This document shows positions 34,223 to 40,993 of a stretch of 57,130 nt of DNA, piece after piece. The translations under genes were made by a program, and so were the position numbers. Origin of the DNA: Candidatus Omnitrophota bacterium (lineage in GTDB: Bacteria > Omnitrophota > Gorgyraeia > Zapsychrales > Zapsychraceae); assembly GCA_015233115.1 (NCBI GenBank), contig JADFYJ010000017.1, positions 1 to 57,130 on the forward strand. The letters are read 5' to 3'. The notes beneath the pieces were generated by a model that saw only the letters and a program-made list of their open reading frames with translations, ran no database searches and was not told the DNA's origin. Every line of letters starts with the position of its first letter. Position 1 is the first letter of the stretch.

Positions 34223-34669
34223 ATGGATAATGTCGTAACCACCAATAAAAAAGCATACCGGGATTTTGAACTTTTTGATAAATACCAATGCGGTATTGTG
34301 CTCCAAGGCGCGGAAATAAAATCCGTGCGCGCCGGGAAAGTCAATTTTAAAAGCGCGTTCGCCCGGATTGATGAGGACGAACTGTTTCTTTTTAATTTAA
34401 GCATTGATCCTTATGTGCAGGCCAGTTATTTGGCAACATTGTCTGAACGCCCCAGAAAATTACTCGTCCATAAACGTGAAGTCAAAAAAATATACGCGGT
34501 CATGTCGCAAAAAAATATGACCCTGGTTCCGACGCAATTATATTTCAACAACCGCGGCATTTTAAAAGTTGAAATTGCTCTGGCGAAGGGCAAAAGATCG
34601 TTTGATAAGCGCGACGACATTAAAAAACGTTCCATAGACCGGGAAATTGATCGCAGGATGAAGAAATAA
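34223..34669 (+). CDS. smpB: SsrA-binding protein SmpB
   Basis: Binds tmRNA and delivers it to stalled ribosomes in trans-translation. The 148 residues contain NKKAYRDFELFDKYQCGIVL, GAEIKSVRAGKVNFKSAF and the basic tail KRSFDKRDDIKKRSIDREID. It sits right before ssrA, a common arrangement. Confidence 0.96.
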   Translation: MDNVVTTNKKAYRDFELFDKYQCGIVLQGAEIKSVRAGKVNFKSAFARIDEDELFLFNLSIDPYVQASYLATLSERPRKLLVHKREVKKIYAVMSQKNMTLVPTQLYFNNRGILKVEIALAKGKRSFDKRDDIKKRSIDREIDRRMKK

Positions 34670-34758: not shown

Positions 34759-35402
34759 GGGGGTGATCGGATTCGACTTAAGATGTTGATGTGTAGGCGG
34801 CATGCCGAGGAAGCCTGGTTGGCCTCGTAAAAAATCTGGGCAAAAACTAAACGCAAACTACGATGTAGTTGCTGAGGCAGAAAGCATCCTCGCGGGTGCC
34901 GAAGCCGCATTAGTCTAAGTTACAAGCTAACTTAGCCTTTTTATCGGGGGTCGCCCGCGACTCGATAAAAAGCACACTGTGGGCTGGTTCTGATAAACGT
35001 TTTCGGTGTCAGAATGAGATCTTAGAAAACTGGGTTTAACGCATCCTGTACGCTGGAGACGTTAAACCAAGACCAAAAAACGTTCTACGCATGTAGAAGC
35101 TTACGCAAAGCTCTTTAAGGACCGGGGTTCGATTTGTAAAAAGTCGACTTCTGGAGTAATTCAGAAGTAAAACTTGGCTTACATCAAGGAAACCCTAACT
35201 CGTAATGGAGAGGGCAATCTTGAGGGGTGAAAGCCCTGCAGAGACTTCCTCATTCGTGAGGAGATAGGAGGTATTGCCGTTGAATGTGCGACGGTAAATT
35301 TACGCCTTCTATAACACGCCAGGCTCCCGATATAAATTCGGGATGAAGAAATAGTCCACGCTATTTGGAAACAGATAGGCTAGTGTCCCCGCACCTCCAC
35401 CA
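34759..35402 (+). ncRNA. ssrA: tmRNA (ssrA), interrupted by a group I intron
   Basis: tmRNA rescues stalled ribosomes and tags the unfinished protein. The 5' end GGGGGTGATCGGATTCGAC and the 3' end CACCTCC-ACCA (CCA encoded, 35400-35402) form the tRNA-like acceptor. The tag frame starts at GCA 34853 and stops at TAA 34916. It encodes 21 residues, beginning ANYDVVAEAES and ending AGAEAALV. The stop lies in hairpin CTAAGTTA/TAACTTAG. The T-arm is split after TTCGAT by a 252-nt intron. Without it the RNA is 392 nt, a normal length. The tag end ALV is unusual, since most tags end in AA. Confidence 0.96.
35134..35385 (+). ncRNA. Group I intron in the T-loop of tmRNA
   Basis: Removing 35134-35385 restores CGGGG-TTCGATT-CCCCG, a correct T-arm. 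P1 pairs the exon end UCGAU (last base 35133) with GUCGA at 35143-35147 and has the required U-G pair at the splice site. The intron ends in G (35385). P2 is CTTCTG/CAGAAG (35148-35167), P4 CAAG/CTTG, P5 CCCT/AGGG, P7 GACT (35243)/AGTC (35353) in the context AGAAATAGTCC, P8 TCCCGA/TCGGGA. There is no room for a homing endonuclease. Confidence 0.92.
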
Positions 35403-35566
35403 TTTGTATTTTTGTTGTTGTAAATGTATTATTTGACAGTGGTTTATGAAAGCGATAATATTCTCACATAGCATTGGTGCCCAAATAGTGCCCATTTTAA
35501 AATTGGGTCTGGGCATGAAAACGTGAGGATATATTGATTAAACAAACTGTCAAAGAAACTTATTAA

Positions 35567-35601
35567 AGGCAATCTTCTCTATTGAGGAGGTTGCCTTTTT
35601 T
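35567..35601 (+). terminator. Intrinsic terminator downstream of ssrA
   Basis: AGGCAATCTTCTC pairs with GAGGAGGTTGCCT (with G-T pairs), loop TATT, followed by seven T. It ends the ssrA transcript 165 bases after the CCA. The gap 35403-35566 holds an imperfect palindrome with TGCCCATTTTAAAATTGGG but no gene. Confidence 0.85.
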
Positions 35602-35743: not shown

Positions 35744-36159
35744 GGAGATTTATTTCAGCCGATATGCTGGTACCGTATCCTTCTGATCCGCAATCATTAA
35801 ACCGATATAGCTACTGTCATAATAATCCTGTTAACAGAACCGACCCTAGTGGACATAAGAGTTGGTGGAAGAAATTCTGGGGAGGGGTTCAGGATTTTGT
35901 TAGGGATTATGGCGGGCTGTTTGGTTTGTCTGGTGGGTTAGCCAATGGGATTATTAACAATAATTGGCAACCGCTTAAAAATCAGCTTATTGCGGGAGCA
36001 ACAGCTTTTGTATTCTCGGGCTTTAATCCTATAGCTACAATGGCAGCGATGGTTACTACGAGTTTTCTGGATTCTAAACCTGGCCAACAACTAACAAAGT
36101 TTTTTGCGGCAGAAGTAATGGATGACATGTTAGGCGAGTTCTGGTGCCACACACCGTGA
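35725..36159 (+). pseudogene. Rhs-repeat protein C-terminal remnant
   Basis: The frame opens with RYYDPSLGRFISAD and continues NRYSYCHNNPVNRTDPSGH, the conserved end of an Rhs/YD-repeat core. About 100 residues of variable C-terminal tip follow (KSWWKKFWGGVQDFVRDYGG). The thousand or more residues of repeat core normally upstream are missing. The last codons (WCHTP-stop) come from the terminal repeat of the transposase element at 36143, so the tip is truncated as well. Rhs tips are usually toxins. This tip matches nothing I recognise. Confidence 0.8.
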
Positions 36160-36264
36160 CCCGAATTAAATATCTGGTTTTTTGTAGTAATTTGATATAA
36201 TTTATTATTAAATATTCCCTTTACAATCCCTTTTAAGATTCCCTAATCTTGGAGGGATTTTTTT

Positions 36265-36921
36265 ATGTCAAGAATAGCAAGAGTAGAAGCGTTGGGGTAT
36301 CCGCATCATGTGATTCAGCGGGGCAATCGGAATCAGAAGGTGTTTTTTAGCGATCAGGATAAAGAAACATATCTAAAAATTTTGAAAATGAATAAGGATA
36401 TATTTGGTTTTGAAATTTGGGCGTATTGTCTTATGGATAATCATGTTCATCTTGTTGTTGTTCCGAAGAAGGAAAATGGAATGATAATGGGTATTGCTGA
36501 AACGCATCGTATGTATACGCGCATGATTAATTTTAGGTATGGTTGGCGGGGATATTTATGGCAGGGACGATTTAAAAGTTTTGTTATGGATGACAACTAT
36601 TTATTCGAAACTGTCCGGTATATAGAGATGAATCCTGTTAAGGCAAAAATCAAAAGAATAGCTGAAGAATATAAATATTCAAGTGCAAAAGCGCACTTAT
36701 CCAGAAAGCTCGATGAGATTTTAGATGATTTTTATTTATTAAATCAGGTTGATGATTGGAAACAATATTTAAGTTCAGGAGTTTTGGATGATGCCGTTAC
36801 TAAAATGAAAAATTCGGAATTAACCGGGCGGCCTTTGGGATCTGATGATTTTTTAAAAAAGCTAGAAAAAATTTTAGGCAGGGAATTTATAAAGAGAAAG
36901 CCGGGACCGAAAATAAAATGA
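36265..36921 (+). CDS. REP-associated tyrosine transposase (Y1/HUH family)
   Basis: Single-strand DNA transposase of the IS200/IS605-like Y1 fold. The start MSRIARVEALGYPHHVIQRG is typical of the group. The HUH pair is in DNHVHLVV and the catalytic tyrosine in VRYIEMNPVKA. The C-terminal half (TGRPLGSDDFLKKLEKILG) looks like the DNA-binding tail of larger RAYTs. 218 residues, apparently intact. It overlaps the next ORF through ATGA. Confidence 0.93.
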   Translation: MSRIARVEALGYPHHVIQRGNRNQKVFFSDQDKETYLKILKMNKDIFGFEIWAYCLMDNHVHLVVVPKKENGMIMGIAETHRMYTRMINFRYGWRGYLWQGRFKSFVMDDNYLFETVRYIEMNPVKAKIKRIAEEYKYSSAKAHLSRKLDEILDDFYLLNQVDDWKQYLSSGVLDDAVTKMKNSELTGRPLGSDDFLKKLEKILGREFIKRKPGPKIK

Positions 36922-40330: not shown

Positions 40331-40993
40331 ATGCAAAAAAAGGTATTATCAACTATTCTGCTTTTATTAACGGGAATTGTTTTCATCCCTCAAGCCCACG
40401 CGGCACTTATTGCGGCTGACGCCGTAGCTAACAGCTCATGGTATACCATGCCGGTTTCAACCATTGTAGACGGTAGTGGTCTGAATACAGCTAATAATCC
40501 TCCGACGCATACTTCTACAGATTGGTCTTCTTCCTGGGAAACTATGCCGTATCAATATTCAGGAGTAGTCACCTTTGATTTTCACCAGAATACGGATGTG
40601 GGAAGTTTTAGGGTTTGGAATTTTAATTTAGTCAATGGTAATGGCTCATTCACTGGCCGCGGTTCAAAAGATGTTAATGTTTTAACACAAACTGACGGCG
40701 GCGCATGGGTAGATCGAGGGTTGTATCTTTTTCCTGAAGCTCCGGGGTTGGATTCTTACACTGGAAATCTTTTCGCAAATCAAAATTGGGAAGATGTCCG
40801 TTATGTAAAATTCAATATTAGCAGTATTTGGGGCGAAGGGGATACGGGCGGGCACACGGGTTTATCTGAAGTGCAATTTTATACGCCTGAAGAAACACCA
40901 GGGAATGGTCAATCAACGGTTCCTGAACCAGCAACGATGTTTTTATTAGGTAGCGGTTTTTTAGGAATATTTTTTAGAAGATTTGGCCGATAA
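40331..40993 (+). CDS. PEP-CTERM sorted exported protein, discoidin-like body
   Basis: Signal peptide MQKKVLSTILLLLTGIVFIP..AHA, a beta-rich body of about 165 residues (SGVVTFDFHQNTDVGSFRVW, GLSEVQFYTPEE) that recalls F5/8-type carbohydrate-binding domains, and the C-terminal tripartite tag VPEPATMFLLGSGFLGIFF ending RRFGR. The tag is processed by an exosortase/EpsH enzyme, not encoded in this window. It has its own promoter and terminator. Confidence 0.88.
   Translation: MQKKVLSTILLLLTGIVFIPQAHAALIAADAVANSSWYTMPVSTIVDGSGLNTANNPPTHTSTDWSSSWETMPYQYSGVVTFDFHQNTDVGSFRVWNFNLVNGNGSFTGRGSKDVNVLTQTDGGAWVDRGLYLFPEAPGLDSYTGNLFANQNWEDVRYVKFNISSIWGEGDTGGHTGLSEVQFYTPEETPGNGQSTVPEPATMFLLGSGFLGIFFRRFGR

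Follow-up and report, generated by a model that had tools for sequence, protein, structure and literature searches.

Positions 35134 to 35385 of the window, by which we mean the whole stretch of 57,130 nucleotides analysed here, are a group I intron lodged in the T-loop of the tmRNA gene, and this intron is real, intact and correctly bounded. The explanation that suits it best, and of which we are highly confident, is that of an ordinary, presumably self-splicing intron of the tmRNA T-loop, which would have arrived by homing and whose endonuclease gene (HEG) would since have been lost. The DNA itself is placed in the phylum Candidatus Omnitrophota by its named relatives.

The split tmRNA gene and the limits of its intron

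The elements of the locus, all of them on the plus strand, are the following:

34223..34669 (+): smpB, the tmRNA cofactor gene (Pfam SmpB, 176.6 bits, E 3.4e-52), adjoining the tmRNA gene upstream
34759-35402 (+): tmRNA (ssrA) gene, two exons split by the intron, directly behind smpB
34759..35133 (+): tmRNA 5′ exon (RF00023, 124.5 bits), ending in T-stem CGGGG and T-loop TTCGAT
34853..34918 (+): tmRNA tag reading frame ANYDVVAEAESILAGAEAALV*, resume codon GCA, at its presumed position, translated from the spliced sequence
35134..35385 (+): group I intron, 252 nt, ORF-less, T-loop position 7, last base omega G
35386..35402 (+): tmRNA 3′ exon, with the last T-loop base T, T-stem CCCCG, acceptor CACCTCC and ACCA
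35565..35598 (+): intrinsic terminator-like hairpin, downstream of the tmRNA

The preliminary description had proposed that the T-loop is interrupted by a group I intron of 252 nt, devoid of ORFs and with exactly these boundaries, and Rfam, ARAGORN and the restoration of the arm agree with it on every point. The search with the Infernal group I model that it suggested (Rfam cmscan) gave a match to RF00028 at 35126-35378 (61.2 bits, E 4e-13, against a gathering score of 50 bits), which spans the full model, positions 1-253, and the intron thereby passes the refutation check by group I model that the description had set. The tmRNA model RF00023, in turn, matched the unspliced DNA at 34766-35135, aligned up to GGTTCGATT and lacking the 3′ strands of both the T-stem and the acceptor. 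ARAGORN found no tmRNA in the unspliced window DNA and a complete one in the sequence from which the 252 nt had been removed, where it also gave a shorter version of the same tag frame, AEAESILAGAEAALV*.

The 5′ exon ends as ...CGGGG-TTCGAT at 35133 and the 3′ exon reads T-CCCCG-CACCTCC-ACCA, the insertion point being between T-loop nucleotides 6 and 7 (TTCGAT/T). Excision restores the T-arm CGGGG-TTCGATT-CCCCG, and the corresponding string, CGGGGTTCGATTCCCCG, is found in the spliced sequence and not in the precursor; the acceptor GGGGGTG of the 5′ exon pairs at 7/7 positions with CACCTCC (35392-35398). The boundaries are those given by the standard rules for group I introns, by which the final U of the exon pairs with a G of the guide and the intron itself ends in G: here the −1 U, U35133, pairs with G35143, and the final base of the intron is G35385. 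The longest frame within the intron has 27 amino acids, and no intact HEG is found there.

Several other elements lie downstream. At 35477-35493, and likewise in the related genome G003 (L053:3266-3283), a paired motif, GTGCCCAAAYAGTGCCC, is found some 70–75 nt behind the tmRNA, with a chance expectation of 0.01 in the window; it is perhaps the remnant of an integrase site. Right behind the tmRNA, at 35764-36921, there is a fragment similar to an Rhs-type repeat core, for which Pfam gives no match, and after it an IS200-type transposase (Y1_Tnp, E 1e-12); further on, the secreted protein encoded at 40331-40993 bears a PEP-CTERM sorting motif (E 3.5e-7).

Fold of the intron and predicted course of splicing

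Folding and comparison both recover the helices named in the preliminary description (P1 with its U-G pair, P2, P4, P5, P7 and P8), together with others:

35129..35147 (+): P1, exon UCGAU (35129-35133) with guide GUCGA (35143-35147), U-G at the 5′ splice site
35148..35167 (+): P2, CUUCUGGA/UUCAGAAG, GUAA loop, covarying
35173-35178 with 35318-35323 (+): P3, catalytic core
35184-35189/35218-35223 (+): P4, catalytic core
35193-35196/35211-35214 (+): P5, catalytic core
35224-35228/35233-35237 (+): P6, catalytic core
35243-35246 with 35353-35356 (+): P7, the guanosine-binding helix, GACU with AGUC, pseudoknotted with P3
35247-35262 (+): P7.1 hairpin, pair probability 0.9-1.0
35265..35311 (+): P7.2 domain (35265-35271/35305-35311, inner hairpin 35277-35294), pair probability 0.9-1.0
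35325-35330/35338-35343 (+): P8
35361-35367/35372-35378 (+): P9, GAAA loop

The precursor folds 6 standard deviations better than its shuffles (z −5.9, 0/200 as good), its unconstrained structure of minimum free energy coinciding with the group I fold in its nested part, and the mean pair probability is 0.77-1.0 for P1, P2, P3, P4, P5, P6, P7.1, P7.2, P8 and P9. P7 was left out of this scoring because it forms a pseudoknot, and was judged instead by comparison: it is invariant in 22 related T-loop introns and agrees with the Rfam consensus. Across these same 22 relatives P3, P4, P6 and P7 are 100% paired; compensatory changes affect four of the six pairs of P3 and five of the six of P8 (95% paired), and for both helices none of 300 shuffles pairs as well. 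P2 is paired in 95% of cells, with compensatory change in 7/8 pairs (0/300 shuffles as good), and P9 in 77%, in a region where the MAFFT alignment is loose. The pairing between exon and guide is kept in all 31 introns compared, the guide being either GUCGA or GUCGC, while P10 is weak, with 1 bp in the window intron and 0-3 bp in relatives. Between P7 and P3 stand two additional helices, P7.1 and P7.2, which we take to be the mark of subgroup IA and which point to this subgroup for the window intron. A chance match or a misalignment was also considered as the origin of the intron call and is ruled out by the E-value, the exact restoration of the arm, the fold z-score and the covariation.

According to this anatomy, the primary transcript (34759-35402) would fold into a ribozyme in which the T-loop exon UCGAU and the internal guide GUCGA come together as P1; an external guanosine would attack after U35133, and the freed 5′ exon would then attack after G35385. 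The ligated tmRNA would thus regain its T-arm and with it the capacity to be processed, charged and used with SmpB. Such guanosine-dependent self-splicing has a precedent in an intron of the same class, that of the Clostridium botulinum tmRNA, of 287 nt, previously shown to self-splice (PMC2729099).

Distribution, class and rival explanations

The intron is present in 17 of the 384 Omnitrophota genomes sampled, always in the tmRNA T-loop and at the same subsite, and the T-stem is restored in all 17 although the stems differ (CGGGG, CCGGG, GCGGG, GGCGG, GCCGG). Within the window's family (f1) four of the genomes searched carry it, namely that of the window itself (G000), the same-genus genome G001 (JADFYE01), G003 and G009. 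The same lineage of introns also reaches the Deltaproteobacteria and WOR-1, with a sister lineage in Bacillota; the intron model R1 matches T-loop introns in Deltaproteobacteria (L135, L137, L152), WOR-1 (L134), Pseudomonadota (L191, L174) and Bacillota. The Bacillota introns form a clade apart from those of Omnitrophota, Deltaproteobacteria and WOR-1 (100/100) and differ from them in the layout of P6. The introns of L135 and L137 sit in TGCGAT loops. Group I introns in general occur in 28/55 relatives, most of them outside tmRNA, the lineage being intron-rich.

In the Omnitrophota family f15 the introns are not a single clade (AU test, p 7e-69), a sign that they have moved from family to family. 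In the same tree an intron of family f7 is nested within those of f1, and since the monophyly of f1 is not rejected (AU test, p 0.16), horizontal transfer is claimed for f15 only and not for the window copy.

As regards its class, the site had been described as known but rare, from a few bacteria, an estimate now outdated: 883 unique intron-form tmRNAs from 21 phyla have been catalogued, all of them with the intron in the T-loop, mostly at position 7, and with an average intron length of 293 nt (Nawrocki, Petrov and Williams, 2025, PMC11915505), the position-7 introns having been first described by Williams (2002), as cited in that work. The window intron adds one case to this class, whose description it fits in every point tested (same gene, subsite, −1 U, omega G and short ORF-less form), so that nothing essential differs. 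Of the 883 published introns, 36 (4.1%) are reported to have a HEG, located either in the region of P7.1 or behind P9 (PMC11915505), and the occasional position in the P7.1/P7.2 region is also that seen among the relatives of the window intron; their share in Omnitrophota is 10/17, although the two samplings differ.

Given that the window's genome (91% complete) contains a single tmRNA candidate over the Rfam cut-off, the intron must splice if trans-translation is used. This dependence of tmRNA function on splicing is what favors the notion, put forward in the preliminary description, of the intron as a control point, that is, a regulatory switch in which conditional splicing would set the level of working tmRNA. 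However, nothing in the sequence suggests that splicing is regulated, no match to a riboswitch or any other regulatory RNA family was found in the intron (Rfam cmscan), and the intron is missing from most members of its family. Its patchy presence, partly at odds with host taxonomy as in f15, is what would be expected of a mobile element and not of a conserved control. A switch of this kind thus seems to us highly improbable, and a selfish or neutral self-splicing element is the simpler reading. It is likewise scarcely credible that the intron is dead for splicing and the tmRNA gene defunct, whether as a pseudogene or as an artefact of assembly. The weak P10 would agree with this, but the core helices and the splice-site rules are all intact, the acceptor and the T-stem are fully paired, the tag frame is open and the neighboring smpB is undamaged; moreover, the same insertion is found in the same-genus relative, in an independent assembly and with an intron identity of 90-94%, and tmRNA is nearly universal among bacteria.

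Endonuclease genes inside and beside the intron

In 10 of the 17 Omnitrophota introns the P7.2 loop contains an open LAGLIDADG HEG of at least 134 codons, these introns measuring 637-665 nt. The gene starts with TTG (once ATG) a few bases after AGGAGGT and in most cases stops at ...CGGTAA, so that its ends form part of the P7.2 helices. Its product is recognized as Pfam LAGLIDADG_1 (24.3 bits, cut-off 23.1), and the nearest solved proteins (PDB) are I-MsoI, I-AniI and I-CreI constructs, the HEG profile matching the full length of I-MsoI (E 0.012) and, in part, an engineered I-MsoI chain (E 1.3e-6). Like the homodimeric endonucleases of the I-MsoI/I-CreI type, which it resembles at the level of the sequence profile, the relatives' protein of 134 aa has a single motif, and it should therefore work as a homodimer whose target is near-palindromic; the T-arm DNA would be a site of this kind. 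The intron would have reached the T-loop through DNA homing, with the endonuclease encoded in P7.2 presumably cutting intronless T-arm DNA, and the window copy, its HEG gone, would now be a stationary passenger. Viral contigs were considered as a source of the HEG and gave distant relatives only (best 43%, partial), with no close source among them.

The sister species in the same genus has the HEG in the P7.2 loop (G001, L051:2961-3365). In the window's genome, by contrast, which lacks such a gene in the intron, a search with profile A2 found no relative of it, and hence no free-standing partner for collaborative homing either near the intron or elsewhere, although in a genome 91% complete a gene located elsewhere could be missed. 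In the intron itself, at the place where the HEG of the relatives starts and stops, there is the following element:

35280..35297 (+): five-codon frame TTG AAT GTG CGA CGG TAA, behind AGGAGGT

It is possible that this frame is the remnant of a HEG deletion. As proof of a scar, however, the window's own P7.2 was discarded, its longest word shared with the HEG being 7 nt, within the range of shuffles (p ~0.4).

In the tree built on the ribozyme part, the ORF-less introns are scattered among those bearing a HEG, with 6 changes of state, at least 5 of them forced by well-supported branches, and a single ORF-less clade is rejected (p 2e-5). Two HEG-bearing introns share a five-row clade (99/90) with that of the window. 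Taken by itself, the tree gives the number of changes and does not separate gain from loss, and some ORF-less P7.2 domains (G003, G229, G235 and that of the window) have no HEG word above chance, both of which would accommodate the opposite history, in which the ORF-less introns came first and the HEG entered P7.2 repeatedly. Against it stand the coding ends of the HEG that persist in three ORF-less introns, 19 nt in G384 (AAAATTGAACCAACGGTAA; shuffle p 0), 12 nt in G009 (shuffle p 0) and 11 nt in G247 (shuffle p 0.015), as well as the fact that the HEGs of neighboring introns are nearest kin (G001-G293, 99/98), which suggests that the gene was inherited with the intron in this clade, to which the window copy belongs. 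We consider such repeated invasion unlikely. The loss of the HEG is thus the best reading of the sequences for the window copy too, taken from the tree and from the scars of the three other relatives; as its P7.2 contains no above-chance HEG word, it is to the tree that this loss appeals, and a more extensive deletion, gene conversion with an ORF-less intron as donor, or HEG gains on several occasions would be possible in this particular copy.

A search of named genomes with the ten HEGs of the Omnitrophota introns yielded 186 relatives, and 79 loci were retained. In 65 of these a tmRNA gene lies at most 1.5 kb from the HEG relative (Rfam), and a further two (L150, L170) are recognized by the intron model, with which 67/79 loci are linked to tmRNA. 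Among the source genomes of ten of the loci, eight of which lack a tmRNA close by, the T-loop intron occurs somewhere in nine. The arrangements are diverse: (i) the HEG is within the intron in Omnitrophota, WOR-1 (L134) and Deltaproteobacteria (L135, L137); (ii) in Bacillota (loci among L138-L202) it is outside the tmRNA gene, convergent and just behind the tmRNA terminator, as in L138 or in L172, where the HEG occupies 1501-1893 and the tmRNA 2223-2559 on the minus strand; (iii) in Proteobacteria (L191, L174) and in L152 it is downstream and in the same direction as the tmRNA; (iv) in two Chloroflexota (L149, L173) it is antisense within a T-loop intron whose loop subsite differs from that of the window. 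In L176, L180, L188, L189 and L136 the HEG accompanies an intronless tmRNA. Two of these tmRNAs have odd T-loops, TGCAACT and TCCGATA (L136:321-343, L180:1051-1090 minus), which are possibly resistant target sites. In an Omnitrophica genome (CG11, PCWB01000003.1; L128:985-2010) behind an intact intronless tmRNA lie the HEG, half of the intron (its 3′ part) and the decayed remains of an older 3′ exon, where the intron appears to have been bypassed via replacement of the 3′ end of the gene.

The association can be followed more closely in 147 genomes of Clostridiaceae, where 37 have the intron (one weak match excluded), 29 the HEG, 23 both and 6 the HEG without the intron (odds ratio 28, p 3e-12). 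Wherever the two share a contig (22 genomes), the HEG lies downstream in convergent orientation, at about 200-500 nt from the 5′ half of the intron in 14 and at 2.8-55 kb in 8; these distant genes would probably have been pushed out by later insertions. In G396, G415, G454, G395, G435, G533 and G398 a gap of 2.8-15 kb separates the convergent HEG from the tmRNA, as though islands had entered between the 3′ end of the latter and the HEG.

Collaborative homing, in which a free-standing HEG and an ORF-less intron share one common target, is known from phages (review, PMC3984707). The ORF-less T-loop introns beside free-standing HEG relatives in Clostridiaceae, Bacillaceae and some Proteobacteria resemble it, with the difference that they are at a bacterial chromosomal tmRNA and not in a phage, and this pair is missing from the window's genome. 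On balance, we lean towards the view that the tmRNA T-arm has a LAGLIDADG lineage of its own, in at least four layouts: within P7.2, antisense within the intron, free-standing downstream of a tmRNA with an ORF-less intron, and next to intronless tmRNAs, this last in several Patescibacteria-type lineages. A free-standing HEG would bring about the homing of the intron by co-conversion, and the window's intron would be a copy whose HEG has been lost. If this is accepted, the low published rate of HEGs would be partly apparent, because the gene is often just outside the tmRNA gene. No published account of the linkage between HEG and tmRNA was found in a literature search that left out most subscription papers and older tmRNA-website papers, and as far as this search extends, the details of mobility (the distribution of the HEG, its loss, and the tmRNA linkage of free-standing LAGLIDADG genes) are unreported.

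The window intron is a clean and well-bounded case from an uncultured phylum, and one of practical consequence for annotation, since ARAGORN misses its tmRNA and Rfam sees a truncated piece only. Its larger value is comparative. One and the same intron in sister species, of which one has the HEG and the other does not, the scars of HEG deletion in three further relatives, and the linkage of free-standing LAGLIDADG genes to intron-bearing tmRNA genes jointly make the cycle of gain, loss and re-gain of homing introns testable at one site over many phyla, and also offer an answer to the rarity of HEGs in the published tmRNA introns. It is the endonuclease dedicated to tmRNA that is the part worth following.
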